Shown: positions 13,348 to 57,994 of the stretch, piece after piece
Layout: each line of letters begins with the position of its first letter
How positions within the stretch are numbered: position 1 is the stretch's first letter
Assembly: GCF_002835935.1 (NCBI RefSeq)
Contig: NZ_PJCF01000014.1
Span: 1 to 64,000 of the forward strand
Length of the DNA: 64,000 nucleotides
Source of the DNA: Paraglaciecola sp. MB-3u-78
Lineage (GTDB): Bacteria > Pseudomonadota > Gammaproteobacteria > Enterobacterales > Alteromonadaceae
Direction: 5' to 3'
Notes under the pieces: model-generated
What the model was told of the DNA's origin: nothing
Database searches by the model: none
Seen by the model: only the letters and a program-made list of their open reading frames with translations
Translations under genes and position numbers: made by a program

Positions 13348-13807
13348 TCCGTTCGATTAATCACTTGCCGGTTAAATTTTAGCCAGAAAATGAGAAACCG
13401 CAAACTTGATATTTTAAGCTGCTCTTTGTCGGTGACTCTTCCGCTTTACATTTGAAAGCAGACTAAAGCACTGAGCCTAGCGCCAGCAATATACAGGTGA
13501 TTTAATGGGTCCTTCCTAGTCATATACCACAAGGGTAATTCGCAGCGCATGTTTCCATTTCTACACGACTAACAATAGTGAATTGACGATGACGACGATA
13601 ACTTCCAGAGCGGCCATTGGGTGCAATGTTAAAGATTCTATTTCTTTACCGTTTAAATCGATTTACCGCCAAATATTCAACTGGTGTTGAATGGCAGTGG
13701 TTCGCTCGATTAAGTTAGTTACCATCAAACCGTGAATGGCCCTTAAGAGCGAATTGCGGACATAGGGGACATTCGGTTTATGATTGAGCTATAGCTCTAA
13801 ATCAGAC
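13348..13807. other. Gene-free stretch with a repeat shared with 49.6 kb
   Basis: No ORF was accepted here. About 60 bases at 13747-13807 (GAGCGAATTGCGGACATAGG and onward) recur almost unchanged at 49587-49646, each time immediately left of an attC site. This may be the start of a non-coding cassette or a shared flank carried by duplication. Confidence 0.6.
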
Positions 13808-13906
13808 ATTAACGCCCTGTTAACAGGCAAAAAATAGTTGGTTAAAATTAGCGACGAAGGAGCAAAAACCAACTGTTTTTTGTCCTTGTTTAACAGCTTG
13901 TTATGT
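13808..13906 (-). other. attC recombination site (cassette of the 155-aa lipoprotein)
   Basis: Read on the minus strand the site opens with ACATAACAAG and ends with GGGCGTTAATG, the R''/R' boxes of an integron attC. Imperfect inverted arms (CCAACTG/AGTTGG) lie between. Near-identical sites occur at 26257-26355 and 49646-49738. Confidence 0.85.
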
Positions 13907-13909
13907 GTT

Positions 13910-14377
13910 TTATTCACCAAGCCATTTTAGCTTTGCAGTTTTATATATTTTATTGAATTCAGCCTCAGTTATTTTTCCATTAGCTAAGTCATCTTCGGCA
14001 GCCCATATAACTCTGATGTATTCAAATTCTGTTGCTGCAAGAATATAACCTAATTTTCTTTCCGTTATTTTACCACTATGAAATTGGCTCATCGCTAACT
14101 TTTTATTCCACGACTGACCTTTTGGAGGATCTGGTAGTGTAAAGTCAATAGTGAGTAACCTTTCATCAGATATTGTGTAACCTTTAGCAATTGAATCTTT
14201 CGCGCATTCATACAACACATAATCAATAGAATCTTGTAGGCCATAGAAATGCCAATCAAAACCAGCATTACAACCACCTACAATTTTTCCTTCTTTATCA
14301 CTAATATCAATGACTCTTTCAGCGCAACCTGAAAGAAAGCATAATATAATGATTGTTTTTAATATATTTCGATACAT
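13910..14377 (-). CDS. Cassette-encoded lipoprotein, unknown
   Basis: A 155-aa protein with a lipoprotein signal: MYRNILKTIIILCFLSGC, where LSGC is the lipobox with Cys18. The mature part is soluble with no recognised domain, including a helical C-terminus (EDDLANGKITEAEFNKIYKTAKLKWLGE) that resembles short SHOCT-like tails. It starts shortly after the GTTATG box of the next attC and ends three bases from its own attC, the usual layout of an integron gene cassette. Confidence 0.8.
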   Translation of the reverse strand: MYRNILKTIIILCFLSGCAERVIDISDKEGKIVGGCNAGFDWHFYGLQDSIDYVLYECAKDSIAKGYTISDERLLTIDFTLPDPPKGQSWNKKLAMSQFHSGKITERKLGYILAATEFEYIRVIWAAEDDLANGKITEAEFNKIYKTAKLKWLGE

Positions 14378-14396
14378 CGACTAACTCTTTTAAACA

Positions 14397-14473
14397 CATA
14401 ACGCTTAACATATGGGGATTTTAGGAGCGCTTTTTCAGCGAGTAAAATTCCCACCATTATGTTTTTGTTATGT
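14397..14473 (-). other. attC site (cassette of the 120-aa membrane protein)
   Basis: Minus-strand ends are TACATAACAAAAACAT and TTAAGCGTTATG. Central arms GGTGGGAATTTT and AAAATCCCC pair around the loop. It is nearly identical to the site at 14857-14934, as expected for attC sites of one integron. Confidence 0.9.
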
Positions 14474-14477
14474 ACGT

Positions 14478-14840
14478 TTATATTAAGGCCCCATTTAATA
14501 GTAATGATGGCATGAAAAAGCTAAGCGCGAAGACTGTAGAGCCGGTGAATAATATTGCAGCAACACAAAAAGATGCTTGCACTGCAAACACCGCAGGCTT
14601 AGCTGATGCACTATGCCTATAAGCAATATGTGCGATTGTAACCATCTCTTTGAACGCACAATATTTTGCACTTAACCAAGTTAAAAATGGCGTAAAAGTA
14701 GCGATAACAAGAGCAAATGCTAATTCTATGCCCCCAAATTGAACTAAAAACGCGATTTCAGGCAAAAGCGCAGCTGCAACAATAAACGCAATACCAACAA
14801 AGGCTTTCTGAATATTTGTCAATTCATCCCAAGATTTCAT
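14478..14840 (-). CDS. Cassette-encoded membrane protein, unknown
   Basis: A 120-aa protein with three hydrophobic segments (about residues 13-33, 38-56 and 84-110) and a short soluble N-terminus MKSWDELTNIQKAFVG. AAGGGAC sits seven bases before the ATG, and the ATG follows the attC box GCGTTATG by about 15 bases. The gene fills its cassette almost completely. No family was recognised. Confidence 0.78.
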   Translation of the reverse strand: MKSWDELTNIQKAFVGIAFIVAAALLPEIAFLVQFGGIELAFALVIATFTPFLTWLSAKYCAFKEMVTIAHIAYRHSASAKPAVFAVQASFCVAAILFTGSTVFALSFFMPSLLLNGALI

Positions 14841-14856
14841 TTTTGTCCCTTAAGTA

Positions 14857-14934
14857 CATAACGCTTAACATATGGGGATTTTAGGAGCGCTTTTTCAGCG
14901 AGTAAAATTCCCACCATGATGTTTTTGTTAGCTA
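14857..14934 (-). other. attC site (cassette of the 172-aa exported protein)
   Basis: This is the same attC type as at 14397-14473: minus-strand start GCTAACAAAAACATC, end TTAAGCGTTATG, and conserved central arms. It lies directly after the stop of the 172-aa gene. Confidence 0.9.
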
Positions 14935-14939
14935 CTTTT

Positions 14940-15458
14940 TTAGCCTCTAAATATTGAAAAATTAACTGCATTGATTTTCCAGCCATTCCCCGTATTTATA
15001 AGTTGCCAGTTCTCTTTTCCTGAATTACTTTTCCTATCGCCATCGTAGAATATGTAATCAAAATATATGGCTGCTATCTCGCCATCACAAACAATTTTTA
15101 TATTAGATATTTCTTCTCTCTGCCCTTTAGGATTATCTATTATAGAATCTATAAATATTTCAGGGGTACTGTATCTATATTTAGCTGGCTCACGAAATTT
15201 ATCCCCAATTTTCCGCTTTAACTCTATTCCTTCTTTTGAATTTGCCCACTTTAATTCGTTTTCATAATCACTTTTAGTGTGTACGCCAACCCAAGAAACC
15301 GTTCCGTCTACAAATAAATTCAAGAATTTGCTTTTGTCTTTGCTGATTATTGCACTCTCGAATGATTTTACTATTCCATTTAGATTTTGCTCATCGTTGC
15401 AAGCAATTGCAGTTTTTGAAAGTAACAATACAAACGTAATCAGTATAAATTTTTTCAT
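14940..15458 (-). CDS. Cassette-encoded exported NTF2-like protein
   Basis: A 172-aa protein with signal peptide MKKFILITFVLLLSKTAIA. The mature part (VKSFESAIISKDKSKFLNLF...WQLINTGNGWKINAVNFS) has the pattern of an SnoaL/NTF2-like fold: an N-terminal helix, then beta strands ending with a W.I....F strand. The substrate is unknown. It begins soon after a half-attC (GCGTTAGC at 15479-15490) and ends at a complete attC, so it is a cassette gene. Confidence 0.75.
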   Translation of the reverse strand: MKKFILITFVLLLSKTAIACNDEQNLNGIVKSFESAIISKDKSKFLNLFVDGTVSWVGVHTKSDYENELKWANSKEGIELKRKIGDKFREPAKYRYSTPEIFIDSIIDNPKGQREEISNIKIVCDGEIAAIYFDYIFYDGDRKSNSGKENWQLINTGNGWKINAVNFSIFRG

Positions 15459-18026: not shown

Positions 18027-18536
18027 TTAATTTTATCTGAATTTTGCTATTAGTGATCGTTCACCGAACGGCTTACCAACAGTCGTTTATTGAACAAATT
18101 TCTAGTACATTTTTGAATCTCGACTGTCCGGTATTAGGCTCATTGCCGTCATTCATGTTTGAGTAATCGTATGATGATTCTTCACTCAATATAGTCAGAT
18201 CGTTCGAATTCGCTTATGACCGCTTTAGGTCGATTTTTGCCAATCTGCTAACGACAAAAATTCCGACAAAGCGGTCATTAGCACTTAGAGTAATATTGGT
18301 GCATTTTGCTACTAAAACCCATCTTTAGGAACGTTCTCTATCCGTCGGCCATGTGCCAATACCCGCCAGTCAAGACTCTCTGCTTGACTTAGCGGTTCTA
18401 GCAGAAAGCAGACGTAGCTATTTTGTCAAATCACTCCCATTTTCAATACTAAATAGGCTCTATTGTTTTAACGAAAGATAACAATGAAATATAATAATTA
18501 GAAAACTAGTAAAGTTTAAATTAAAAGTGTTGACCC
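18027..18536. other. Gene-free region with two repeat remnants
   Basis: Bases 18118-18240 belong to a dispersed repeat also found at 21240-21380 and inverted at 28440-28600. Bases 18248-18340 match, in inverted orientation, the sequence just ahead of and including the first codons of the split reverse transcriptase (32310-32400). No intact gene was seen. Confidence 0.65.
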
Positions 18537-21112: not shown

Positions 21113-22219
21113 ATAGCTATTGGAAATGTTTTTATAACTTTACTGTAGATCAGCAATCCTTACTAATAGTGTTTTATGTCAGTTGGCTGACCGTCTGCTA
21201 TATAGAGTGTACTTGCAATACGCCTTAGCCAAGACGAACGAATGTTGGTCGCTCATTGCCGTCAGTCACGTTTAATTAATCGTATGATGAATTTTCGCTC
21301 AATATAGTCTGATAGTTCGAATTCTCTTACGTCAGCTATAGGTCGATTTAAGCCTTTTCTAGACTAGAGCCTTATGTCGGCTTTTGGCACATGGCCGTCT
21401 GTCAGCTCGATCTGTGATTTTAATCATCAACGAAACATATTGTCGATGATAGCGACTGGCCGTTGTGATATAGATTACAAAAGGCCGCTGAAAGGTGTGA
21501 CTAGTGTCGTGGCTCACGAACCTAGAGTTAAGAAAACCGCATTATTTTGCGGTTTTTATTTATAATTTAGGTAATTATTAATTAAGCTTAAATGGAACCT
21601 CAATGCTAGGTAGTACCAAAACGCCAACACTAATATCTTTGTAGGGCCATGTAAGTAAGTTCTTAGTTCTCAAAGAAAGTGAGTTAGTCAGTCGGCTATG
21701 TTTGTAAGTCCATTCTCACTTAAACTGCGTCCATTATTAATGATTGTGAATCAGGTATCAGCCATATTCGCAGTTAATGTGAGTCGGAAGGTGCGAATAT
21801 AATCAAGTCGGCGCGATCAGGTTCGTTGCCCCTAAAACTATTTATACAATATTTGGCAGCATCAAGTAGTGGGCTAGGCCCACACATTGATCAATTCAAT
21901 TCCTCACAATATGTGCCTAAAAGCTTATCCGAAATTAGCAAAACGGATTTGCAACTCGTTTGTACAACGTCCGGTAATCAACAACCGTAGGGCGTTAGTT
22001 TCTTAAATGTTAGTTTCTCAAGCCAGGAACCATGCCACCAATTGCAAGCAATGAAACCACGCAAAAAAGCCGCGCGTTTTCCCCCTTTGGGTTGGGTCAG
22101 GGCTAAAAAATCTAAGGGCTAAGAGCATTTATGAATTGATGTTCTGTGAAGTATTGAGGCTATTCTACCTTTGTTATTAATTTCCTTTTCTATCGCTTTT
22201 ATCAGTGAGAGTCACCCAA
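21113..22219. other. Long gene-free region with repeats and a terminator
   Basis: Positions 21240-21380 are a copy of the dispersed repeat seen at 18.1 and 28.5 kb. AAAACCGC-N-GCGGTTTTTATTT at 21534-21560 is a good intrinsic terminator with no obvious gene before it. From about 21925 the sequence is shared with the duplicated module at 54.2 kb. No coding region was accepted. Confidence 0.55.
21534..21560 (+). terminator. Rho-independent terminator
   Basis: An AAAACCGC / GCGGTTTT stem with a short loop, followed by TTTATTT. It is close to symmetrical, so it may work in both directions. Confidence 0.65.
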
Positions 22220-22323
22220 CCTACGATTAAATCAATTGTAAAGCTGCGCCGGTCAATCCCCCGTTCCCCACGATAAAGCCGTGGCGCGTGCGGCCTCTTT
22301 CCCGCAATGGATTTAATCGTAGG
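22220..22323 (+). promoter_or_regulatory. Conserved structured leader of the methyltransferase gene
   Basis: A perfect 14-bp inverted repeat, CCTACGATTAAATC at 22220-22233 and its complement at 22310-22323, encloses about 75 GC-rich bases. A second small stem, CCACG/CGTGG, lies inside. The element ends 64 bases before the ATG and is preserved in copy 2 (54517-54620), with changes mostly in loops. It could be a structured RNA leader or a protein-binding site. Confidence 0.65.
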
Positions 22324-22387
22324 CCAGGTGAAAAAAATCACGAAGCGACAGAAGAGCAAAACAAATTATTAACAAAGGAAAACTATC

Positions 22388-25032
22388 ATGCCTGCAACTA
22401 CCTCACTAGAAACAAACATCCATTCAAAAACTAAAAGCAAATCTCTGCGAGGCGAAGCTCAAGTATCGCAATTTGTTAAAAGAAAAAAAGCACCTTCAGC
22501 AAAAACCAAAGCGGCAAAGTCTGAATTGATCCGTCGGAGTGTGTTAGCTAAACAAAAAATCAAGTTGGCAATGGATACAGCAAAAACACAAGACGAGTTA
22601 CTAGCGGCGGCAAGCTTGCGCGTAAATGATATTTTAATCGCAGAACATAAAGAAACGGCAAACGCTGAATTGTTTATGACGTTTAACCAGTGGAAAGAAA
22701 AAGGTTATAGCGTTAACAAGGGCGAAACCTCATACAAAGTATGGTCGGCCCCGATCAAGGGCAAGCGTGAAATTGAAGTGACTGAAGTATCAACAGGCCA
22801 AGATAAAACCCTAGAGGAACAATATTCTATGTTCGCTATGGTTTCTTTATTTTGTGAACATCAAGTGAGTTTAATTGATAGCCCTAAAGACAAAATTAAG
22901 GCCGATGATTCTGGTTTATGTATCGGTGAAAAAGTAGAGACTGTTTTTAACTGTAGAGCGAATACAGCAAGCGGTAATTATGGCGATTATTTAGGTTATT
23001 TTGAAGGTGCAGACAGGGTTTTTAGTCATGGTTTTACCTTTGATATTTTCCGCAATGTTGAGATCGAAAGTGACTATTTTTTCAAAGTCGTCAATGTTGA
23101 CACAGGCAAAACAGCCATCACAAAAGACACTGATGGTTTAGTTTTTGCGGTTAGAGAAGCAGCGCAGCCAGTTAAGCCAATAACCCACTATATGAGTTTG
23201 CCAAGCCAGCCTAAGCAGCAAGCCACAATCGAAACCAAAGCGCCGGTAAAAGTAGAAGCACCCGCGCCGGTTATTGATGTTTTATTAGCTGAAAAATTAG
23301 ACGTTTTAGCAGAAAAACAACAAAAAAACATAGACGGTTTTTTTGCAGATCGTCAAACCAATACACCTAAGCGTTTAGCAGAAGCTAATCGAGCTAGGTG
23401 CCAGGGTGAGAAACTTCTAAGAACACAAAAGGCGCTTATTGCACTAGCGCAATGTCATAGAGTCGGCAACGTTCCCGATGTATTGAAAACCGTTAAAACA
23501 AAAAAAGCGGTGTTTGATTTGATGCCTGCCAAATCTGAGCTTGTTAATAACGGGTATCATACTTATTACAGAGATACCGGCGAACGTTTGCACGATAGCG
23601 CCGAAGCCATAGCAATTTGGGATTTGCTAACAGGTAAAAGCCCTGAAGAAAAAGCCAGCGATGCGTTAAAAGTTAAAATTGATGGTTTACAATTTACCCA
23701 CATCGCCGGTTATTTCCCAACACCAAAGCCGGTTACTGATTTCATGTTAGAGCTAGCCCAGATTGAAGACAATCAAATCATTGCTGATACTAGCGCGGGG
23801 AGCGGTAACATATTGGACGCAGTCAAAGCGCATAACAGCACGTTAAGCCTTGAAGCGTATGAGGTTAATCATACACTTTGCGAGATATTAGCCGCCAAAA
23901 CTATTCGGTTATTCAAGGTGATTCGTTACAGATTACTAACACTAAAGCCTACGATAGAATTTTAATTAACCCACCGTTTGAAAATCTAGCTGATATTGAT
24001 CATGTTCAACATTCATATGATTTTTTAAAATCAAAGGGGCGCTTAGTCGCTGTTATGTCAGCGAGTCCATTTTTCAGAAAGGATAAAAAAGCGGTACAGT
24101 TTAGAGAGTGGTTAGTAGAGTTAAACGCAGAAATACACGATTTACCTGATAATTCTTTCAAGGGATCAGGTACAGGTGTTAACACCAAAATAATTGTTAT
24201 AGACAAGCCCGACACCAACGAAGGTAACGACACAGACGAAAACCCGTTTGTTTGTGCAAACTTTGACGATAAGCAAGAGAGCCGCCGCGACCGTTTAGAT
24301 GAACGGGCGGCGAATGCCAGCCAAAAAAGTACAGCACTTTGGGAACAAGGCCATAAAATGGCCGAGGTTATACCCTTTGGTCAACCGATTTTAATCGGTC
24401 ATCATAGCGAAAAAAGTGATCGTAATTATCGCGCTAAATTTTGCGCTAAATTTGATAAGTCGATGGAAGAAAGCACAAAGGCCGGCCAACTTAGCGATAA
24501 GGCCACGAGCGTTGGCACTGGAGGGATTGCCAGCGATGACCCGCAAGCTATTAAAAAGTTGAGAGCAAAATTAATTGAGCTTGAAGCAACACAAACCCGC
24601 ATGAAATCCGCTAACAAAGCAATCAAGCAAAACGATAATGAAGCACTTACACGCCTTGGGTTTAATGATAAAACCATTGAGGCGCTAAACACAGAAGACT
24701 TTGCAGGGCGTACCGGTTTTGCTAGTTATCAGTTAACCAATAATGGTGCAGAAATAAGACGGTTAAAAAAACGGATTGAAAGTATAGAAAATTTAAGAGA
24801 TAGAGATCCAATTAATCATGAAAGCGACGAGCTAAAAGTATTTATCGAAGATGGTCGTATTCATTTTGATTTTAAAAATGGTAAGCCAGCCGAGGCAGTT
24901 AGGGCCAAAATTAAAAGTTATTCTTTCAAGTTTTCGCGTTACTCAGACACATGGGTAAGAAAAGTCACAGGCAGCGCTTTAAATATTACGCCTACAGTTA
25001 TCAAAGAAATTGAAAGCACGCTCAAGGAATGA
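22388..25032 (+). pseudogene. ArdC-like / adenine-specific methyltransferase, copy 1, frameshifted
   Basis: The same gene as at 54684, but broken. At about 23897-23900 copy 1 has AAAA where copy 2 has AAAAA, so the first frame ends at 23965 (525 aa, ending ...KTIRLFKVIRYR). The remainder is readable only from 23878 in another frame (384 aa). The break falls between motif I (ADTSAGSGN) and the catalytic NPPF, so neither piece can hold a complete methyltransferase. A sequencing error in the homopolymer cannot be excluded. The downstream hairpin GAGGGCTATCGCGCCCTC probably ends the transcript. Confidence 0.85.
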
Positions 25033-25380
25033 GCGCCGGAGGGCTATCGCGCCCTCAAAATCAATCTTATTTTTTGTTCGTGGCTTCACTGCGTTGCAGG
25101 CCGCATAAGCACAAATAATAAGATTGATTTTTTCACTACTCTTTTTACTTTTTTATTAAAACACACTACGTGCCAGGACTAAAAAATTAGGGCTATCGCG
25201 CCCTCTAATACAACAACAATTTTTGTTCGTGGCTTCACTTCGTTGCAGGCCGCTTAAGCACAAATGTTCTTGTTGCATTATTCACCTACTCCTAGTCGGC
25301 CTAGTCGCCAACGGCATGTGCACACGCGCTTAGGCGCTAAAAACACATACCCCTTTTAACTAATTCAAGAGATTTTGAAC
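25033..25380 (+). repeat. Duplicated hairpin region between the two module genes
   Basis: The block GGGCTATCGCGCCCTC...TTTTTGTTCGTGGCTTCACT...GTTGCAGGCCGC occurs twice here (from about 25040 and about 25190) but once in the other module copy (57335-57420). Each block contains hairpins and no ORF. Confidence 0.75.
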
Positions 25381-25845
25381 ATGAACTTAAACGATATTAA
25401 AACCCTTATTAACCAACCTAATATGTTGTTAGCTGATTTTCACTCGAGAATAATGATAGAAGAAGCGCCAGAAGCATTACTCGATTTTTACGAGAAAAAC
25501 GCAGATAAAATTAACGGAAAAGTGGTGGTTGTAAGATCAAAAGCAGATGAAGCGTTAGCTGCGAATGCTCGAAATTCAGAGCCTAAAGTATTATTCGTTT
25601 TTAGCTCTGATTGTTGGGTATCCAGTTATTTTTCAGGTGTAAGTCAAAAAGTGATTTTTTCAGCCGCTTTACTGAAAAGAGTCAGTAAATTATCTGTCAA
25701 AACAAAATGTGCTAGTCGAGTTTTACAGTTAATGGACTCTAGTGATGATGGGGCCGATAGATATTTTGAGTTTGTAAAAAGAACATCTGTTGAATGTGCT
25801 GTACCAGTTAAGCAAATCGAGGACGATTTAAAACCATACTTATAA
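25381..25845 (+). CDS. Module protein of 154 aa, copy 1, unknown
   Basis: The start is the ATG at 25381 (TTG at 25375 is less likely), behind AAGAG. The protein is soluble: MNLNDIKTLINQPNMLLADFHSRIMIEEAPEALL..., with a central VLFVFSSDCWVSSYFSGV and a C-terminus VPVKQIEDDLKPYL. No family was recognised. Copy 2 (57530-57994) differs by only scattered substitutions and no frameshift, suggesting that it is under selection. Its fixed place after the methyltransferase gene suggests a linked role. Confidence 0.72.
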   Translation: MNLNDIKTLINQPNMLLADFHSRIMIEEAPEALLDFYEKNADKINGKVVVVRSKADEALAANARNSEPKVLFVFSSDCWVSSYFSGVSQKVIFSAALLKRVSKLSVKTKCASRVLQLMDSSDDGADRYFEFVKRTSVECAVPVKQIEDDLKPYL

Positions 25846-28297: not shown

Positions 28298-28329
28298 AGA
28301 GCAATACTAGTTAAACACTGTTTTTTTAT

Positions 28330-28368
28330 AAGGGCTATCCACTTAGCCCGACCAACCACTACATGTTG
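28330..28368 (-). repeat. Terminal repeat linked to the IS91-type element, copy A
   Basis: AGGGCTATCCACTTAGC and onward lies about 30 bases upstream of the transposase start. It is repeated, inverted, at 32516-32560 and 36408-36450. Its position fits the ter end of an IS91 element; the repeat also contains the near-palindrome CACTACATGTTGTG. Confidence 0.6.
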
Positions 28369-29020
28369 TGTTTACTAGATTTAATCTCGATGCCACTTTG
28401 CTGACCTAATGTAGAAACAAAAACGCAGCCTTTAAGGACTGCTTAGTGCCAAAAGCCGACATAAGGTTCTAGTCTAGAAAAGGCTTAAATCGACCTATAG
28501 CGGTCATAAGGTAATTCGAACTATCAGACTATATTGAGCGCAAAATCATCATACGATTAATCAAATGTGACTGAAGGCAATGAGCGATCTACTGACAGTC
28601 AGAACCTTCTAATCAGAGCGCACTGTCAGTTTTTTTACACAATTTAAACTCTGGATATTTCGTCAAAAATTGGTGATTTATCACTGACCAATTTAGTCGA
28701 CATCACCTGTCAGTCAGTTTTTATGGACTATCCGGCTCTTTCGAGCATTCACCGGACATACGTCTAGGCGGTGTAATATAGCAAGGTCACACCGCGTTAC
28801 CGGACTATCAATCGACGCCTTTTTTAAGTGTTCCAATTTATATTGAATACGCACACTTTAGCGACTTTTTGTCAGATTAATTTACACAATCAATCCAACA
28901 ATTATTGTAAGGTAATCATAAGCTATTGAATTAGATTGGTTTTGATTATGTGGCTTTATCCTTGCAAGGTTTTTTAAGCGCGGTACATTCATAATAAATT
29001 TATATATAAATGGGATAAAT
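28369..29020. other. Gene-free region with an inverted copy of the dispersed repeat
   Basis: Bases 28440-28600 are the inverted third copy of the repeat at 18.1 and 21.3 kb. The rest should include the promoter of the PEP-CTERM gene. No ORF was accepted. Confidence 0.5.
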
Positions 29021-29566
29021 ATGATTAATAAAGTTACAAAAATTTTAGCAATAATAGCGTTAACGGGATGGATGGGCGTCGCCAATGCGACGTTAATATT
29101 TGATTTTTCGTGGGATTCTAGTAATGGTAAAATTAGCGGCGAGATACTGGGGTTAACGAACGAGGTCGGGCCACAGGGAGCCACCGGGGTCGTGTTAACA
29201 AGTCTCGATGGGAATAGTGTAAGTGTGGACGTTGTTAAGGATGCGGGGTGGATCGTTGATTCAAATAATTTTCAGGTTTTAAATAACAAAATTGTTTTTG
29301 CAATGTTTGAGTCCACGTTATTTAAACAAGTGACATATTCTTTTAATGACGTGAGATCGTTTGAGGGGAATTATTTCGGAGATGCATATCTCAAATTTGT
29401 AGATGGCGCTGAGAATATACTAATTAGCGCGTTAAAAGATGACGTGACGAATGAATTAAGTATAAGTTTTGTAAATCGCGTGACAGTCCCCGAGCCTAAT
29501 TCGGTGTTATTGGTGTCGCTGGGCTTAGCGGGCTTGTCATTTGCTCGATACAGAAAACAATCTTAA
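29021..29566 (+). CDS. PEP-CTERM sorting-domain protein
   Basis: A 181-aa protein with signal peptide KVTKILAIIALTGWMGVANA and the C-terminal signal VPEPNSVLLVSLGLAGLSFARYRK: a PEP motif, a hydrophobic segment and a basic tail. Exosortase processing is expected. The 3' end overlaps the end of the split reverse transcriptase by 71 bases in convergent orientation. It is unrelated in its middle part to the PEP-CTERM protein at 9178. Confidence 0.88.
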   Translation: MINKVTKILAIIALTGWMGVANATLIFDFSWDSSNGKISGEILGLTNEVGPQGATGVVLTSLDGNSVSVDVVKDAGWIVDSNNFQVLNNKIVFAMFESTLFKQVTYSFNDVRSFEGNYFGDAYLKFVDGAENILISALKDDVTNELSISFVNRVTVPEPNSVLLVSLGLAGLSFARYRKQS

Positions 29567-32353
29567 TCGGCTTGTCATCCAGCCCTGCAACTACCCATCG
29601 TAACCATCGGGTAATATAGTCATCAAGCATAGCGGCTCTTTTGGGGGCCGTTTGCTTTTGCTCATAAAGCTGACGTATTTTATTAACCGCGTTAGATATC
29701 GTTTTTTCTGCTAAACCTAATTCTGGCAGGCCAAATCGATAACCCAAAAAATCAAATTCTTTTTCAATACGCCCAATAAAGGTTTTATCCGGCGCTTGCT
29801 CGACTTTTAATTGATTAAAGTGTTGATTGACGGTTCTCACCGCTTTGCGCAAGTGCCAGCGAGTTTTTGCTAATATGATGAGTCGAGTAGCCCGAGGGAA
29901 CTGCCCCCTCAGGCTCTCACAGAACCGGACGTGAACGTCTCCGCTCATCCGGCTCTTATCAATCAAGCCTTCGCGTACAACAATCGCCAGTGAGCAAACA
30001 ACCAAGGTTGCTTATGCGCAATACGATTTAACCATTGCGCTGCTCGTCTTCGATGATTGCGTAAACGTTTATACTTTCGCGTCGCCCACATAATGAGACG
30101 ACGATCTAAGCATTTAAGGGTCGGGTATAACGCTGACTTGTAGTAACGTCCATAATAGTTGATCCAACCTTGAATGATCGGATTGAACATTCGGGCAAGA
30201 TCTTCCAGTGCTTTGTCGCTTCGTAATGGCCAGTTCCAATCACGTGATTTGTGCCGGATTGCTTTTGCAGCCTTGTTGCTGATTGCCGGAGTGAAATTAA
30301 TAAAGTGTTTCCCCCACCGATTCTTTGAACGGCGAGAGCGAAAGGTATAACCCAGAAAATCAAAACTGACTTCTGCATAATCCCCTCGCCTGTCATCATC
30401 TTTACAATAGACAACTTTCGTCTTTTTAGGATGAAGCTCTAAACCCACTTGTTTCATTCTGGCTTCCAGCTTTTGCTTCAATTGCTGCGCTTGAGACTGG
30501 CTCTTGCAATGGCAAACTGCATCATCAGCATAGCGCTCAAAGGGAACATTCGGGAATTCCCGAACCATCCATTGGTCGAATGCATAATGGAGAAAAAGGT
30601 TAGCCAACAAGGGGCTAACGACGCCTCCTTGCGGTGTTCCTTTCTCCGGAAATTCCAGTGTGCCGTCTTGCATTTCAATCGGGGCTTTTAACCACCGCTC
30701 TATATACAATAGTACCCACTTTTCTTTCACATGCTTTTGCACTGCTCTCATCATCAGCTCATGATCGATATTATCGAAAAAGCCTTTGATATCAAGATCC
30801 AGTACCCAGTCACTTTTCCAGCAGCGCTTACGTGCTTGCCCCACTGCATCATGTGCCGATTTCTTTGGACGGTAACCATAAGAGTCTGAATGAAAATGCT
30901 GTTCCAACTCAGGCTCTATTAATTGTTTGGCTACCATCTGCGCAATGCGGTCAGTCACTGTAGGGATCCCTAAAGGCCTCATCTGTCCATCATCCTTGGG
31001 TATTTCAACCCGCATGACGGCGGATGGAAAGTAGCTGCCTGACGACAGACGATTCCAGAGCTTATAAAGATTATTCTTCAAATCCCCATTAAACTTTTCG
31101 ATCGTCTGGCGATCAACTCCGGCAGCGCCTTTGTTGGCCTTGACCCGTTTGTATGCCTCCCAAACTTGTCGTTTGGAAATAGTAAACGGCTTTGCTTGTT
31201 TCAATCCAATCCTCCCGTTTCCGGTTGTTTTCTTTAGTTCAAGCTGATCGATGCTTCCCCTTCGCTCCACTTTCATTACAAAAGCTTCATCACTACTACG
31301 GGTCGCTCCGCCCCTGTGCCCTGCATCGGTACTCTCACACTTATGGGGCTACCACTTGTGTTTCTCCCTTATCATCAGGGCGACAGGTTCCCACGTTCCA
31401 CATAAAAGCCTGTTTCAAGTTCACGCCATCTTCATGCCGGAGGCCGCCTAGCCAATAATCAGGTTTCCGCTAGACTTATCCCGAGGTAACGACGACCCCT
31501 CGGTTTTGACACTCGTCCCTACATTTTCGACACTTCAATAATGGTTCATTTGCATTCGTCTCCTTGAAACTCACCTGACAAGATCGAGCCTTGCCTTTTC
31601 CGTAACGCTCACCACCCCGGCTCTTTACCGACGCAGCTTACGGTGGTTTGAAGCCTCCACCTGCATGGCGGCTTCGAGGGGCCAAACCCTCATCTTTTAT
31701 GCAGCATAGCTGCATGAAGGACAATGTCCTTCTTTGCGCCTTCGTGGCACACTGTCATCCATAAACCTGCGATAAAAATAGCGGGTGTCACCTTCCATCT
31801 GCTCATCTAAGGCTTTTAAGTAATACGCCGCAATAATCGGTGATAAGGGGCAGCCTCTTGATATACCGCAGTGTATAGACTTAAACGTACCGCCTCTTTC
31901 AACGGAACGTTTCACAAACTGCACTAACAAGCGCCAGATAAAAGGGTCGGTGATGTCTTTATCCAATTGCCGGAGCAATATCGTATGGTCAATCGACTCA
32001 TAGTAGCCCTTCACATCGGTTTTCATCACGTAGCGATAATCCGGCAACGCTGCGTGTAGGTCATTCACGGTGGCTTTTAGTCCCCCATGGCCTTTGATAT
32101 GAGTACACAGTGAGGATAATGCTAATGCCTCCGGTAAGGCCATGGCTAACATCTTTAATACCAGCGCATCTTGTGATGACCACAAATGAATACTTTCACC
32201 ATCGGCTTTGGTGACCACACTGAGCGGCATGAAGGTGTAATCTTGTTTGTTGAGTGTTTGCAGCAGCTCACCACGGATAGTGTGCCAGTGAAAACGCAGG
32301 TGCCAGATATCGGCATTGGCGGGAACGTTCCTAAATATGGGTTTTAGTAGCAA
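29496..32353 (-). CDS. Reverse transcriptase of group II-like, non-intron type, split by a group II intron
   Basis: Exon 1 (32353-31753) encodes RT motifs: LWSSQDALVLKMLAMAL, KTDVKGYYESIDH (first Asp), GISRGCPLSPIIAAYYL, ending YFYRRFMDD. Exon 2 (29881-29496) continues with ILAKTRWHLRKAV...DKTFIGRIEKEFDFLGY and ends near WLRWVVAGL. The exons total 987 bases and join in frame as GAC-A/TC-ATC (DDII) after removal of 29882-31752, giving 328 aa. The start at TTG is uncertain; the N-terminus may be shortened. The family is a stand-alone RT of unclear role, sitting next to the integron integrase. The last 27 residues run antisense into the PEP-CTERM gene. Confidence 0.82.
29882..31752 (-). mobile_element. 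Group II intron, complete, inserted in a reverse transcriptase gene
   Basis: The 5' end GTGTGCC (from 31752) fits the GUGYG consensus. Domain V is the 34-base GAGCCGGATGAGC...GTCCGGTTC at 29955-29922. The 3' end CTACTCGAC at 29882 fits the AY rule. The encoded maturase-reverse transcriptase lies between. Splicing would rejoin the host gene exactly in frame. Confidence 0.88.
29963..31276 (-). CDS. ltrA: Group II intron-encoded reverse transcriptase/maturase
   Basis: A 437-aa protein with RT motifs VDRQTIEKF, LGIPTVTDRIAQM, DLDIKGFFDNIDH, KGTPQGGVVSPLLANL and the catalytic RYADDAVCHC. A maturase (X) domain with IIQGWINYYGRYYKS follows. No HNH endonuclease domain is present, so the intron probably uses the replication fork or single-stranded targets. 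It splices and mobilises its own RNA. Confidence 0.93.
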   Translation of the reverse strand: MKVERRGSIDQLELKKTTGNGRIGLKQAKPFTISKRQVWEAYKRVKANKGAAGVDRQTIEKFNGDLKNNLYKLWNRLSSGSYFPSAVMRVEIPKDDGQMRPLGIPTVTDRIAQMVAKQLIEPELEQHFHSDSYGYRPKKSAHDAVGQARKRCWKSDWVLDLDIKGFFDNIDHELMMRAVQKHVKEKWVLLYIERWLKAPIEMQDGTLEFPEKGTPQGGVVSPLLANLFLHYAFDQWMVREFPNVPFERYADDAVCHCKSQSQAQQLKQKLEARMKQVGLELHPKKTKVVYCKDDDRRGDYAEVSFDFLGYTFRSRRSKNRWGKHFINFTPAISNKAAKAIRHKSRDWNWPLRSDKALEDLARMFNPIIQGWINYYGRYYKSALYPTLKCLDRRLIMWATRKYKRLRNHRRRAAQWLNRIAHKQPWLFAHWRLLYAKA

Positions 32354-32468
32354 ATTGCACCAATATAACTCTAAGTGCTAATGACGGCTTTGTCGGAATT
32401 CCCGTCCTTAAGATGATTAACTTGTTTGTCTGCTTTTCGCTCTAAGAAGACATTAATTTTTTCAATTC

Positions 32469-32560
32469 GTTATGTCAATTAAGCGCACCAATAAGACCTA
32501 AATGACAAAAGAAAGGAACCACAACATGTAGTGGTTGGTCGAGCTAAGTGGATAGCCCTT
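32469..32560 (+). repeat. IS91-linked terminal repeat, copy B, directly upstream of the integrase
   Basis: About 92 bases (CGTTATGTCAATTAAGCG ... GTGGATAGCCC) match 36359-36450 nearly base for base, and the last 45 match the inverse of 28330-28368. It occupies the place where the integrase promoter and attI site are expected. Confidence 0.7.
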
Positions 32561-32583
32561 TTTTATATACAGTTAATTGAAGT

Positions 32584-33552
32584 GTGATAATCGTGCCAAA
32601 ATCTCCTTTTATTGAAAGCATAAGGGCTGAACTCCGCGTTCGACGCTATAGTTTGCAAACTGAGAAATCGTATTTGTTTTGGATACGCAACTTTATCTAC
32701 TTTAATGACAAACGACATCCTAATGACATGGGTAATGCAGAGATAGAGCCGTTCCTTTCCTATCTCGCAAATCAGAGGAAGGTTAGTAGTTCGACTCAAA
32801 ATCAGGCTTTGTGTGCATTAATTTTTGTTTACAAACACATCCTAAAGCGAGAAATAGTAGGCTTAGCTTATTCATTTACCAAGCAACCAAGACGCATGCC
32901 TTGTGTATTAAGTGAGCAGGAAGTACGGCAAGTGTTATTGCATTTGAAAGGTAAGTATTGGCTTATTACTGCTTTGCTGTATGGCTGCGGCTTGCGAATA
33001 AATGAAGCACTAAAGTTACGTGTAAAAGATATTAATTTTGACAACCATACTGTATTTATATTCCGAGGTAAGGGTGGCAAAGATAGATATTCGTTGCTGC
33101 CAAAAACTCTTGATGACGCCTTGATAAAGCAAATAGAGTACGCGAAACAGATCCACAAGAGCGATGTTGCACAAGGTCATGGATTGACATCATTGCCTGC
33201 CTCACTCATCAGAAAATATGGTAATACTGCCAAAGATGTGTCGTGGCAACACGTTTTTCCTTCTTCTGTTCGGTGTGTATACCCCTATGACGAGTATGTC
33301 TGTCGTCACCATATTCATGAAACCGCTTATCGAAAGCAGTTAAGACAAGCTGTAATAAAAACAGATATCGCTAAAAGAATAACAGCCCATACATTTAGAC
33401 ATTCATTTGCTACCCAGGTTTTACGAAGTGGCGCTGACATTCGAACGGTTCAAGACTTACTAGGTCATGCCGATGTTAAAACAACAGAAATTTATACACA
33501 TGTGATTGGGACTAAATTTGGCAATACACAAAGCCCTATGGATAAAATTTAG
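32584..33552 (+). CDS. intI: Integron integrase (tyrosine recombinase)
   Basis: A 322-aa tyrosine recombinase. Catalytic residues are visible: Arg in YGCGLRINEAL, H..R in HTFRHSFAT, His in LGHADVKTTEIYTH and Tyr in the same motif. The insertion unique to IntI, LPASLIRKYGNTAKDVSWQHVFPSS...RHHIHETAY, separates it from XerC/D. It recombines attC sites with attI. The attC sites to its left are all oriented away from it in the expected way. The ATA/ATC-rich start codon choice is uncertain, but the family length fits. Confidence 0.93.
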   Translation: MIIVPKSPFIESIRAELRVRRYSLQTEKSYLFWIRNFIYFNDKRHPNDMGNAEIEPFLSYLANQRKVSSSTQNQALCALIFVYKHILKREIVGLAYSFTKQPRRMPCVLSEQEVRQVLLHLKGKYWLITALLYGCGLRINEALKLRVKDINFDNHTVFIFRGKGGKDRYSLLPKTLDDALIKQIEYAKQIHKSDVAQGHGLTSLPASLIRKYGNTAKDVSWQHVFPSSVRCVYPYDEYVCRHHIHETAYRKQLRQAVIKTDIAKRITAHTFRHSFATQVLRSGADIRTVQDLLGHADVKTTEIYTHVIGTKFGNTQSPMDKI

Positions 33553-36358: not shown

Positions 36359-36450
36359 CGTTATGTCAATTAAGCGTACCAATAAGACCTAAATGACAAA
36401 AGAAAGGAAACACAACATGTAGTGGTGGGTCGAGCTAAGTGGATAGCCCT
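36359..36450 (+). repeat. IS91-linked terminal repeat, copy C
   Basis: The sequence is the same as 32469-32560. A run of eleven G at about 36317-36327 lies just before it. No transposase accompanies this copy, so it may be a footprint of one-ended transposition or duplication. Confidence 0.7.
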
Positions 36451-36612
36451 TAATTAGATACAGTGTCTCGACTGTCGGCTCACTGGAGCCAGACAGGTAC
36501 TCGCTAATAATTAAGCGAAGGTTTATTACTTTATTGCTAGCGTTGCACTGTAACTGCTCAACGCTGGCTTTTAGTGCAACATGTTGTGCCGTTTATTGTT
36601 GTTCATTTAACA

Positions 36613-49738: not shown

Positions 49739-51658
49739 GTACGCCCAGCATGGGCACGAACTAATGAGGTGAAAGTCCTCTGTAGGAAGATCACCGTTTA
49801 TATAACTTACCGTTATTAAACGTTAACTACTAGCGAATGGCAAGGGCTTAGCCGCGAGGCTTGGTCTGGAGGAAGCCGGACGCAAATTTGCGAGCTGATG
49901 AACAAGAACATCATATGAGGCGTAGGCTAGAGGTGAGTTGGCACAAGACGACGAAACCACGTGATCTAATGGCCACCGTAAATGATGCAGCAGTGCAAAG
50001 AAAGTTCATGCTTTTATCTGGGGAGATCTGCTTAACAAGCGATCGGTAACTAACCAGTGAGGCTCTGGTATACAAGTGCCTTGGCTTTTCAGTGTCATCG
50101 ACTGGAAAGAGCAAATAGATGAAAACCGATAGCGCATAACGGTGTAAGCCGTCATGTGATTAAGCAGAAGTCAGCAGACGACATATTAGCCAAATGCCCA
50201 TCGTAATGGTTGGGACACGGTGAAGGTCCGAACATTTAGAACAAAGGAGGAGCCTTGTCAGACTTGAATACACGAATGCCGTCCGGTAGTGACGTGACTC
50301 AGCGTACCGACAAGCAGCCAGCCTTTAGTGCAGATCTACTTGGGCTTATTCTTCGTCCAGCCAATATCTTGGCTGCATGGAAACGAGTTCGAGCCAACAA
50401 AGGGGCCGCTGGCATTGATGGGATGTCCATTGATGACTTCCCCGCTTGGGCAAAGGATGGAAACTGGAAACGTATTATGTCTGAGCTTTGCTCAGGTCAA
50501 TACCAACCTTCACCCGTTCGGCGTGTGGAAATAGATAAACCAGATGGCGGTAAACGTCAGCTAGGTATCCCGACCATCGTTGACCGAGTGATCCAACAAG
50601 CCATTGCTCAAGTCCTTACGCCTATTTTCGACCCGACCTTCTCAGACAACAGTTTTGGGTTCAGGCCAAATCGAAATGGGCAACAAGCGGTGAAACAGGT
50701 ACAAAGCATCATTAAAACGGGTCGCCGTTTTACAGTCGATGTTGATCTGTCTAAGTTCTTTGACCGCGTTAATCATGATTTACTTATGACGCTCCTTGGC
50801 TACAAAGTGAAGGACAAACGTCTACTTAAATTGATTAAACGTTATCTGCGAGCTGGGGTTATCGATAACCAGCTTTACGTGGAGAGCCGAGAAGGAGTAC
50901 CACAAGGCGGGCCGTTGTCACCCTTGCTGTCCAACATCATGCTCGACCCTCTGGACAAAGAGCTTGAGAAACGAGGCCATCAGTTTGCCCGATACGCGGA
51001 CGACTTTACCATTTTGGTAAAGACGCCGCGTTCGGGCAAGCGTGTGCTGAGTAGTATCAGCAGGTTCCTGTGTCACCGTTTGAAACTGGTCGTTAATACG
51101 ACCAAAAGCCACGTCGTTAAAACCAGTGAAAGCAAATTCCTTGGATTCACATTCAACAGAGGACGCATTCAATGGCATCCGAAGACTTTGCTGAAGTTTA
51201 AACAGCAAGTTCGGCGGTTAACGAACCGTAACTGGGGCGTGTCTATGCATTATCAACTCTTTAAAATCAGTCAATATTTACGAGGCTGGATAAACTACTT
51301 TGGTATCGCTAATAGCTATCAACGATGTGTAGACTTAGATCATTGGATCAGGCGCAGAGTGAGAATGGCGTATTGGCGGCAGTGGCGAAGACCACGTACC
51401 AAAGTCAGAAGTTTAATGAGATTAGGTGTGCATGTACAAGCTGCGGTTGCGTGTGGCATTACCAGTAAAGGGCCATGGCGTAGTGCGAAAACTCCGGGGA
51501 TCAATCAAGCCTTATCGCTTGATTACTTAAAATCCGAAGGGCTTTATTCGTTACGTGATGGTTGGATTGCGCTTCACTATCCTAAATGAAACGCCCTGTG
51601 CGGAGCCGCATGCAGGGTGTTGTGGGGGCTGAGGGTTAGAGACCCTTGGCTACCCGAT
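49739..51658 (+). mobile_element. Group IIC-attC intron, complete
   Basis: It begins GTACGCCCAGCATGGGC (one base off the GUGYG consensus) and ends GGCTACCCGAT. A short domain V region is near 51590-51630 (GCGGAGCCGCATGCAGGG). The intron sits exactly at the TTGT/T position of an attC, the known target of this intron class. It carries its reverse transcriptase. Confidence 0.85.
50255..51589 (+). CDS. ltrA: Group IIC intron reverse transcriptase/maturase
   Basis: A 444-aa protein starting at TTG, chosen because AAAGGAGG lies eight bases upstream. RT motifs: GIDGMSIDDFP, LGIPTIVDRVIQQAI, DVDLSKFFDRVNHD, EGVPQGGPLSPLLSNIML, catalytic FARYADDFTIL; maturase part with LRGWINYFGIANSYQRCVDLDHWIRRR. 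No endonuclease domain, as usual for class IIC. It is distinct from the intron RT at 30-31 kb. Confidence 0.93.
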   Translation: MSDLNTRMPSGSDVTQRTDKQPAFSADLLGLILRPANILAAWKRVRANKGAAGIDGMSIDDFPAWAKDGNWKRIMSELCSGQYQPSPVRRVEIDKPDGGKRQLGIPTIVDRVIQQAIAQVLTPIFDPTFSDNSFGFRPNRNGQQAVKQVQSIIKTGRRFTVDVDLSKFFDRVNHDLLMTLLGYKVKDKRLLKLIKRYLRAGVIDNQLYVESREGVPQGGPLSPLLSNIMLDPLDKELEKRGHQFARYADDFTILVKTPRSGKRVLSSISRFLCHRLKLVVNTTKSHVVKTSESKFLGFTFNRGRIQWHPKTLLKFKQQVRRLTNRNWGVSMHYQLFKISQYLRGWINYFGIANSYQRCVDLDHWIRRRVRMAYWRQWRRPRTKVRSLMRLGVHVQAAVACGITSKGPWRSAKTPGINQALSLDYLKSEGLYSLRDGWIALHYPK

Positions 51659-53841: not shown

Positions 53842-54516
53842 TTCAATTTTTAGTGACCAAATATAATTTAGAGTAAGCGGTGTCAGAAATTCTCTTGAAG
53901 CCTTCTGTCGTCTAAGAGCGTTCAGCAGACATAGCGTGTTCTGCTTGAAATTTTCTCTTTGTGTGTCCAGCTCAATTCGTGACGCACTGAGTCACGAATT
54001 GGGAATGCATCTAATGTCGAATGACTCCAAATGGCACATTTGAGCCGTTGAATATAAAATATTATTACTCTCTTACAGTACCTTGTCTGTAGATATGTAC
54101 GTTTATCTAAATACAAAAAACCTGCCATCCAAGCAGGTTTTTTTGTGTCTGCTTTTCAAGACTTCGGATGATATCCCTCACCTATTAATGAATTAAATTC
54201 CTGTTTATATGTGCTTGTCATGGTTATCCGAAATTAGCGAAACGGATTTGTAACTCGTTTGCACACCGTCTGTTAATCAACAACCGTAGGGCGTTAGTTG
54301 CTTAAAAGTGAGTATCTTAAGCCAGGAACCATGCCACCAATTTAATCAATGAAATCACGCAAAAAACTGCGCGTTTTCCCCCTTTCGGGTTGGGTCAGGG
54401 CTAAACCGATAAGGGCAAAGTGCATGTTTGAATTGATGTTCCGTGAAGTATTGAGGCTATTCTACCTTTGTTATTAATTTCCTTTTCTGTCGCTTTTTTC
54501 AGTGAGAGTCACCCAA
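53842..54516. other. Gene-free region containing a terminator and the start of module copy 2
   Basis: A strong intrinsic terminator lies at 54115-54144. From 54224 the sequence matches 21925 onward of the first module copy. GCACATTTGAG.CGTT near 54030 also occurs at 10387. Confidence 0.5.
54115..54144 (+). terminator. Rho-independent terminator, probably bidirectional
   Basis: AAAAAACCTGC-CATCCAA-GCAGGTTTTTTT has a GC-rich stem with A-run before and T-run after. Confidence 0.8.
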
Positions 54517-54620
54517 CCTACGATTAATTCAATTGTAAAGCTGCGCCGGTCAATCCCCCGTTCCCCACGATGAAGCCGTGGCGCGTGCGGCCTCCTTCCC
54601 GCAATGGATTTAATCGTAGG
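54517..54620 (+). promoter_or_regulatory. Conserved structured leader, copy 2
   Basis: CCTACGATTAATTC at 54517-54530 pairs, with one mismatch, with GATTTAATCGTAGG at 54607-54620. The inner CCACG/CGTGG stem is kept and the loop changes (ATAAAGC to ATGAAGC). Confidence 0.65.
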
Positions 54621-54683
54621 CCAGGTGAAAAAAATCACGAAGCGACAGAGAGCAAAACAAATTAATAACAAAGGAAAACTATC

Positions 54684-57329: not shown

Positions 57330-57529
57330 GCGCGGGAGGGCTATCGCGCCCTCTAATTCAACACCAATTTTTGTTCGTGGCTTCACTTCGTTGCAGGCCG
57401 CTTAAGCACAACTATTCTTGTTGCATTATTCACCTACTCCTAGTCGGCCTAGTCGCCAAGAGTCATGTGCACTCGCACTTAGGCGCTAAAAACACATACC
57501 CCTTTTAACTAATTTGAGAGATTTTGAAC
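57330..57529 (+). other. Spacer with hairpins between module genes
   Basis: GAGGGCTATCGCGCCCTC directly after the methyltransferase stop is a stable hairpin, followed by TTGTTCGTGGC...GCAGGCCGC. It is conserved with copy 1. Confidence 0.6.
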
Positions 57530-57994
57530 ATGAACTTAAACGATATTAAAACCCTTATTAACCAACCTAATATGTTGTTAGCTGATTTTCACGCGATAAT
57601 AATGATAGAAGAAGCGCCAGAAGCATTACTCGATTTTTACGAGAAAAACGCAGATAAAATTAACGGAAAAGTGGTGGTTGTAAGATCAAAAGCAGATGAT
57701 GCGTTAGCTGCGAATGCTCGAAATTCAGAGCCTAAAGTATTATTCGTTTTTAGCTCTGATTGTTGGGTATCCAGGTATTTTTCAGGTGTAATTCAAAAAG
57801 TGATTTTTTCAGCCGCTTTACTGAAAAGAGTCAGAAAATTATCTGTCAAAACAAAATGTGCTAGTCGAGTTTTACAGTTAATGGACTCTAGCGAAGATGG
57901 GGCCGATAGATATTTTGAGTTTGTAAACAGAACATCTGTTGAATTTGCTGTACCAGTTAAGCAAATGGAGGACGATTTAAAACCATACTTATAA
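57530..57994 (+). CDS. Module protein of 154 aa, copy 2, unknown
   Basis: Nearly identical to 25381-25845, with substitutions such as HSRI to HAII and VSSYFSGVSQ to VSRYFSGVIQ. No recognised domain; a soluble mixed alpha/beta pattern with VVVVRSKAD and KVLFVFSSDCW strands. Start ATG at 57530 behind GAGAG. It always follows the methyltransferase gene. Confidence 0.72.
   Translation: MNLNDIKTLINQPNMLLADFHAIIMIEEAPEALLDFYEKNADKINGKVVVVRSKADDALAANARNSEPKVLFVFSSDCWVSRYFSGVIQKVIFSAALLKRVRKLSVKTKCASRVLQLMDSSEDGADRYFEFVNRTSVEFAVPVKQMEDDLKPYL

Follow-up and report, generated by a model that had tools for sequence, protein, structure and literature searches.

Class D group II introns related to RmInt1 are the closest described relatives of the element analysed here, a mobile group II intron that splits a reverse transcriptase (RT) gene in a 64,000-nt stretch of Paraglaciecola sp. 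MB-3u-78 (contig NZ_PJCF01000014.1, positions 1 to 64,000; hereafter the window). RmInt1 itself is a class D (IIB3) intron of Sinorhizobium meliloti carried in ISRm2011-2, an IS630 element (PMC4238363, PMC5894124, PMC8914252). In vivo it reportedly ligates less than 1% of exons correctly, and it has been argued to act as a brake on its host element (PMC4238363); RmInt1-like class D introns generally reside in transposase and integrase genes (PMC4238363, PMC5894124). Proliferation inside another RT-coding mobile element has also been described: in the F3-in-F1 arrangement of Thermosynechococcus elongatus, identical introns occupy diverged copies of the outer element, having spread via a conserved site in it, and sit between two start codons of the outer RT open reading frame (ORF), leaving the RT core intact (PMC2882425). 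Twintrons, too, are already known (PMC4424553, PMC4476101). Class D introns in mobile-element genes and identical introns in diverged RT ORFs are therefore familiar, and what appears to be new at this locus is the site, the catalytic Asp-Asp codons of an RT; a literature search, in which most papers were left unopened, returned no report of these codons as an intron homing site.

The host gene lies on the minus strand. Exon 1 (31753..32353), a TTG-initiated frame with an RVT_1 match, ends TTT ATG GAT GAC A at 31753; the 1,871-nt intron (29882..31752) runs from GTGTGCC at 31752 to CTCGAC at 29882, with the GUGYG and AY ends of group II introns; and exon 2 (29496..29881) resumes TC ATC ATA and continues to a stop. 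The intron is positioned one base 3′ of the GAT-GAC codons of a UG4-class RT. Rfam covariance models recover the D1-D4 element (RF01999, 31573..31691, minus strand, 114 bits) and D5 plus D6 (RF00029, 29882..29957, minus strand, 61.7 bits). The RF00029 match stops precisely at the 3′ splice site. The intron encodes a 437-aa RT/maturase with RVT_1 and GIIM domains (29963..31276, minus strand). Joined, the exons give 987 nt and 328 aa with zero internal stops and read RRFMDD-IIILAKTRW; because intact relatives of the host RT mostly read DD(V/I)(I/V)(V/I)LAKTRW, the junction restores the family reading. A preliminary description, made from the DNA letters alone, had proposed an RT gene split by another RT's group II intron one base past Asp-Asp, with these same bounds, and the junction, the two Rfam matches and the protein domains bear it out. 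The stop in the joined exons that would have told against it is absent from all four intron-bearing UG4 copies, in each of which the joined frame is open, and three further copies in this genome (L017, L019 and L020) share the junction. Its 987-base frame with an RT core (FMDD, then ILAKTRW) also stands as an open frame, but the start is a TTG and the native start has been lost: relative to sister copies, about 165 nt are deleted, including the native ATG and about the first 25 codons.

We assigned the host RT to UG4 from the profile match of a sister copy, L018, which is whole and uninterrupted (348 aa) in the same genome and scores 441 bits against PADLOC RT_UG4 (E 3.8e-133), the next profile being RT_UG17 (E 1.7e-39). 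The host differs from that of a twintron, which we considered and rejected: the host RT family is without GIIM and reaches 105.9 against a cut-off of 300 with group_II_RT_mat. It likewise differs from F3-in-F1, since insertion is within the catalytic motif and the interrupted RT is not a group II intron protein. The intron protein looks like a member of the RmInt1 family; it shares 53.4% identity with a copy on a GR4 plasmid that we identify as RmInt1 by its insertion site, and in a 19-row tree of intron-encoded proteins the RmInt1 copy L177 and the window protein fall under one fork (93/94), the other class being represented by one long outgroup only. As in RmInt1, no endonuclease domain was found (no HNH match at E 0.001; RdRP_1 below cut-off), and homing guided by exon-binding site 1 (EBS1) would be directed into an enzyme gene of a mobile element. 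A class-specific C-terminal extension of class D proteins has been described (PMC3552965). Judged by its sequence, the insert is an RmInt1-like (class D) mobile group II intron splitting a UG4 RT after the catalytic Asp-Asp. RmInt1's own site, ATC GAT GAG A / CC, also lies one base past an acidic pair, Asp-Glu (PMC8914252), and our RmInt1 control, L177, agrees with it (FIDE, GATGAGA before the intron); the phase-1 position one base past acidic codons is common to both introns. The two differ in target, a transposase gene for RmInt1 and the UG4 Asp-Asp codons here, and in EBS1, UUUCGUC (PMC4238363) versus CGUCGUU.

The choice of site would be explained by this guide. EBS1 is presented in a hairpin, CCGAGG-GGUCGUCGUUA-CCUCGG (31481..31503, minus strand, hand-counted), whose 11-nt loop on a 6-bp stem contains CGUCGUU (~31494-31488), complementary to GAUGAC(G/A); the facing intron-binding site 1 (IBS1), GATGACA (31753..31759, minus strand), consists of the Asp-Asp codons plus one base. 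With G-U pairs usable, the EBS1 of this RmInt1-like intron very probably reads RT Asp-Asp codons as its homing site. To relate guide and target across relatives, 24 introns were entered in a pairing test; two (L051, L085) had no hairpin, and L020, which duplicates the window intron, was excluded, leaving 21 scored. Matched EBS1/IBS1 combinations paired at a mean of 5.62 of 7 positions versus 4.62 for 420 mismatched combinations, and none of 10,000 permutations reached the observed sum; the introns scored are not all independent of one another. In these sequences EBS1-IBS1 complementarity is thus found to co-vary. All eight Asp-Asp-site introns compared for the loop carry GTCGTT in it (L017, L100, L099, L179, L173, L161, L156 and L120). 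Among 20 other introns, five have GTCGTT within nt 190-340, outside the loop in L027, L088, L093 and L177; in the fifth, L085, the loop GTCGTTTCGTTA pairs with the exon AACGAGA via TTTCGTT. The occupied sites use three of the four possible Asp-Asp spellings (GATGAC, GACGAC, GACGAT).

Comparison of intron copies points to how the intron spread. In this genome, of 6.48 Mb in 87 contigs, the same junction is occupied in at least four UG4 copies: the window, L017, L019 and L020. The 1,871 nt are without a difference among the window, L019 and L020; the L017 intron, split by a 2-kb insertion, matches them without a difference over nt 1-1135 and at 99.2% in the remainder. (That insertion, L017:6405-8389, encodes a protein that by eye is serine-recombinase-like and lies at GGVVSPLL inside the intron's RT gene, making nested parasites in a mobile RT.) A 3′ intron fragment at L028 is 97.8% identical and retains part of exon 2, and contig C8 ends (at 84748) about 10 nt short of the junction position in the UG4 copy L022, which is perhaps a further occupied copy. 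The exons tell a different story from the intron: when the four copies are compared two by two, stretches of 20-300 nt beside the junction are 70-93% identical in five of the six comparisons, and synonymous divergence (pS) among these copies is 0.20-0.53. In the sixth, L017/L019, the 3′ exon is 100% identical over 300 nt, as are the final 20 nt of exon 1. Across 295 genomes of the family, intron DNA matched six, with full-length identical copies in its own genome only. An identical intron within diverged exons without co-conversion is a signature of RNA-mediated homing, and we infer from these alignments that the intron spread among UG4 copies by recent retrohoming.

The alternative, that the four copies arose by duplication or gene conversion of one interrupted UG4 gene and not by separate homing, draws on the L017/L019 pair, whose shared exon sequence means that these two may not be independent insertions. 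As an account of all four copies it is improbable, because conversion would have carried the flanks along, and the window, L020 and the L017/L019 pair differ from one another by 7-30% in the exons at the junction while the intron has zero differences.

We then asked where relatives of this intron sit. Among the 35 junctions we examined, the upstream frame was clear in 22, all of them in phase 1 except L086 (21 of 22); the 22 are not independent, as they include the four UG4 copies of this genome, two loci with one host (L156/L161) and two with nearly the same intron (L099/L179). The sites of L054, L085 and L120 were chosen by eye, and nine loci stood outside the 35, five with no readable junction (L055, L087, L089, L091, L092) and four with weak sites (L096, L169, L171, L172). 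Besides the UG4 hosts (the window, L017, L019 and L020, with the junction at a YxDD site), the junction lies one base past YADD of group II intron RTs in L100 (Bradyrhizobium elkanii), L099 (Sinorhizobium meliloti), L179 (Rhizobium) and L173 (Peribacillus, Bacillota). At L100 the interrupted gene encodes the RT of a further intron of this type, the joined frame running on as YADD-VICHC, and, unlike in the window, the outer gene is a group II intron ORF, as in a twintron. With group_II_RT_mat (cut-off 300 bits), the exon-1 parts of the hosts of L100 (309.9) and L173 (313.5) pass, whereas those of L099 (244.4) and L179 (249.9) do not. L156 and L161 are inserted one base past YADD in a retron-like RT, whose best match in NCBIfam is retron_St85 (E 6.9e-32, short of the cut-off), and L120 one base past HADD. 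We also observed two tandem RmInt1-like intron copies at one RT Asp-Asp site on a Sinorhizobium meliloti plasmid (L099:1993-5714).

Elsewhere the introns follow other motifs: CWDN (L051), HWGIE (L176), WKIE (L027), KSNE (L085), WHLDE (L168), WHVD (L170), GNQW/GNQY (L090, L178), ENPYY (L100b, L174), LYW (L084) and, in another RT, FLGY (L093). The non-RT motifs we take to be transposase motifs, several of them catalytic; PLSDB annotation names some neighbours, for example ISAs1 in L176. Seven sites (L052, L053, L088, L094, L095, L097, L101) are intergenic or without a clear frame. On recheck L169 showed a clear phase-1 site after YADH. There and in L171 the insertion site, some 470 nt upstream of the sequence for the intron protein, is one base past YADH in an IS66-like frame, a YADD look-alike in an unrelated enzyme. 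The Asp-Asp junction was found in four of 15 plasmid regions hand-chosen among 388 matching records (L099, L100, L173, L179; L099 and L179 counting nearly the same intron twice), and a plasmid search with a short readthrough peptide gave no match. One pattern scan of viral contigs gave 61 matches, three with an intron protein downstream (L120, L156, L161); two others gave no matches and two matches, respectively, both of the latter at loci already known.

Several of our observations weigh against guide-directed homing to Asp-Asp codons as a general account. The window IBS1 itself pairs at only six of seven positions, with A at the last position where G would fit. In the same genome L021 is empty in spite of an apparently good site, though its own frame is interrupted by a TAG; L018 is also empty, but its site is poorer. 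The pairing test picked wrong hairpins for some introns, certainly for L120, whose true loop, ATGTCGTTAA, fits its own exon GACGACA. Among the weak sites, L171 reads YADH with its longest frame in phase 2, the best site of L172 is in phase 0 but ambiguous, and L096 stays unassigned. The arrangement is also rare: none of 13 readable intron loci from other searched genomes has an Asp-Asp junction (six more were unreadable or unresolved and L098 was left out), and a phylum scan found the junction pattern in two of 398 genomes, with an intron protein behind only that of the present genome and none after the match in the second (G1141). Finally, Asp-Asp-site introns occupy at least three places in the tree, a small sample without L120 and L156, which implies repeated retargeting or exchange.

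Taking these results together, we propose the following mechanism. The pairing and the exact position suggest that intron RNA, with its own RT/maturase, would reverse-splice one base after GAY-GAY, and the identity patterns suggest that DNA copying without co-conversion of the flanks would then allow spread via already diverged UG4 copies. In the survey, relatives with the EBS1 core GUCGUU occupy these codons in a retron-like RT and in RTs of group II introns, and other relatives lie after conserved transposase motifs, presumably for the most part catalytic ones, nearly always in phase 1. The intron would sit at the RT active site because strong conservation makes those codons the target it can best rely on. 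We suggest more tentatively that a lineage of RmInt1-like introns might carry a wobble-tolerant guide (GUCGUU) able to pair with any synonymous Asp-Asp spelling; the RT catalytic motif would then be a near-universal homing site, and such introns could hop between UG4, retron-like and group II RTs, reversibly suppressing reverse transcription; this we hold to be possible though not probable. One kind of parasite would then link these three RT groups; naturally evolved guides against YxDD codons are on offer, and intron suppression of other RT systems becomes testable.

What occupancy does to the host RT is a separate matter. An occupied gene would give the full enzyme only with splicing, so that occupancy is probably a partial brake on the host retroelement and not a dedicated switch. 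The preliminary description had favoured the latter, an arrangement in which one RT controls another and the host depends on splicing. The part that survives is that full-length host RT is obtainable only from spliced RNA. A dedicated switch, in which production of the host RT waits on splicing driven by the intron RT/maturase and either host or element gains from this, would accord with the exact in-frame junction, with the four open joined frames and with the purifying selection recorded in the UG4 RT core (dN/dS 0.06-0.24 in 28 pairwise comparisons of 8 sequences over 155 codons). That selection, however, is older than the recent identical insertions; because the intron copies are 100% identical while the exons differ, insertion is too recent to show co-adaptation. 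The family is multi-copy and partly degenerate, the window start is lost, and a scan of 12 further UG4 loci found an empty site in ten (two in this genome; L036 and L062 are apparently the same sequence) and no motif match in two. The search for an uninterrupted RT in relatives did return intact forms, including the database protein P0089 and L018, and this intact copy in the same genome, together with the poor splicing of RmInt1 in vivo (PMC4238363), argues against host dependence, a claim we do not uphold. We regard a dedicated switch as very unlikely. A brake, or plain parasitism, is likelier, because an intact UG4 copy is kept, the insertions are recent and RmInt1 ligates so few exons.

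For the window copy only, the host RT could be a relic, dead regardless of the intron since its 5′ end was deleted. The missing ~165 nt with the ATG and ~25 codons favour this, and stops or truncations have also disrupted several further UG4 copies of this genome; on the other side, the downstream frame is open for 328 codons, and P0089, an uninterrupted RT, has at its N-terminus the same LLLKPIFRNVPA as the window host RT, so the shortened version is not unique to the window and could be translated. We place this reading at a little under an even chance.

The host family is sporadic: matches (E ≤ 1e-40) occurred in 16 of 395 genomes of the family, our own counted, with at most five candidates scored per genome. 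Within the genome we found 12 UG4 copies or fragments with at least 76% identity to exon 1, lying outside the window also on contigs C3, C6, C23 and C45. Published UG4 neighbourhoods are fimbrial (66% in complete genomes; PMC8934634, PMC4244168), an association of UG4 and not a defining trait, and the available parts of these papers hold no mention of an intron-split UG4. In the present subfamily fimbrial neighbours were not seen; convergent PEP-CTERM or ice-binding-like genes stand in their place (short flanks, by eye), which puts UG4, an RT class of unassigned function, in a new context next to surface-protein genes, and our literature search found no report linking the two. In the window this gene (29021..29566, plus strand) converges on exon 2 with a 3′ overlap and is a recurrent member of the UG4 unit.

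We compared 20 close-subfamily loci (the window, L017-L021, L029-L033, L036, L057, L060, L063-L066, L069 and L073), leaving out repeats by listed ORFs (L058, L059, L061, L062, L067), degenerate or cut copies from this genome (L022, L023a, L023b, L024, L025, L026) and the short remnant L038. A gene converges on the RT 3′ end in all 20, with a PEP-CTERM-like tail by eye in 18; in L029 and L032 the convergent genes are related ones that match an ice-binding model weakly (17.4 bits for L029, where the cut-off is 28.7). Pfam PEP-CTERM was run on five of the 18, of which four passed its cut-off and L020 fell below; NCBIfam gave nothing at E 0.01 for the convergent protein of L036, and no PEP-CTERM gene lies at the RT 3′ end in five distant UG4 loci (~40% identity; L035, L070, L071, L074, L076). 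The convergent genes mostly overlap the RT 3′ end, their middle varying among copies. In several copies the shared sequence begins sharply some 77 nt 5′ of the ATG, with less shared by L020, L021, L025, L026, L036 and L038. A conserved region found upstream of several UG4 copies (32323..32410, minus strand; second instance at 18249-18336) abuts the 165-nt deletion in the window. At the other end, UG4 3′ modules switch near codon 260, and L018, L021, L029 and L030 display at least three exchangeable modules joined near FDFLGY (codons ~255-270), each with its own convergent gene. UG4 RT and PEP-CTERM-like gene together look like a modular mobile unit. We rejected a diversity-generating retroelement after self-comparison of six units, which gave inverted matches of 31-60 nt only, no direct repeat of at least 30 nt and no template/variable pair.

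The gene beside the host RT (32584-33552) is an integron integrase (TIGR02249), as the preliminary description had it. A 100% identical second copy lies at G000:C87:138269-139231, about 8 kb from a UG4 fragment. A whole-genome search for relatives gave four matches at E ≤ 1e-40, on contigs C8, C87 and C12 only, and because C3, C6, C23 and C45, which carry other UG4 copies, have no integrase match, we judge the adjacency incidental and reject an integron link of UG4. Elsewhere in the window, attC-like repeats were seen by eye near 13765-14942, and three instances of a 60-nt terminal-like repeat were noted, one preceding an IS91-like transposase gene (28315-28376), one preceding the integrase (32514-32573) and one at 36405-36466. 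A block at 21925-25845 is duplicated at 54224-57994 (~89-98% identical in matched pieces), with a long gene present as 525- and 384-aa frames on the left and as a single 881-aa frame on the right. A second group II intron (49848-51658; RF02001/RF01998, RF00029) encodes a 444-aa RT/maturase, and three more places in the genome give the same match scores.

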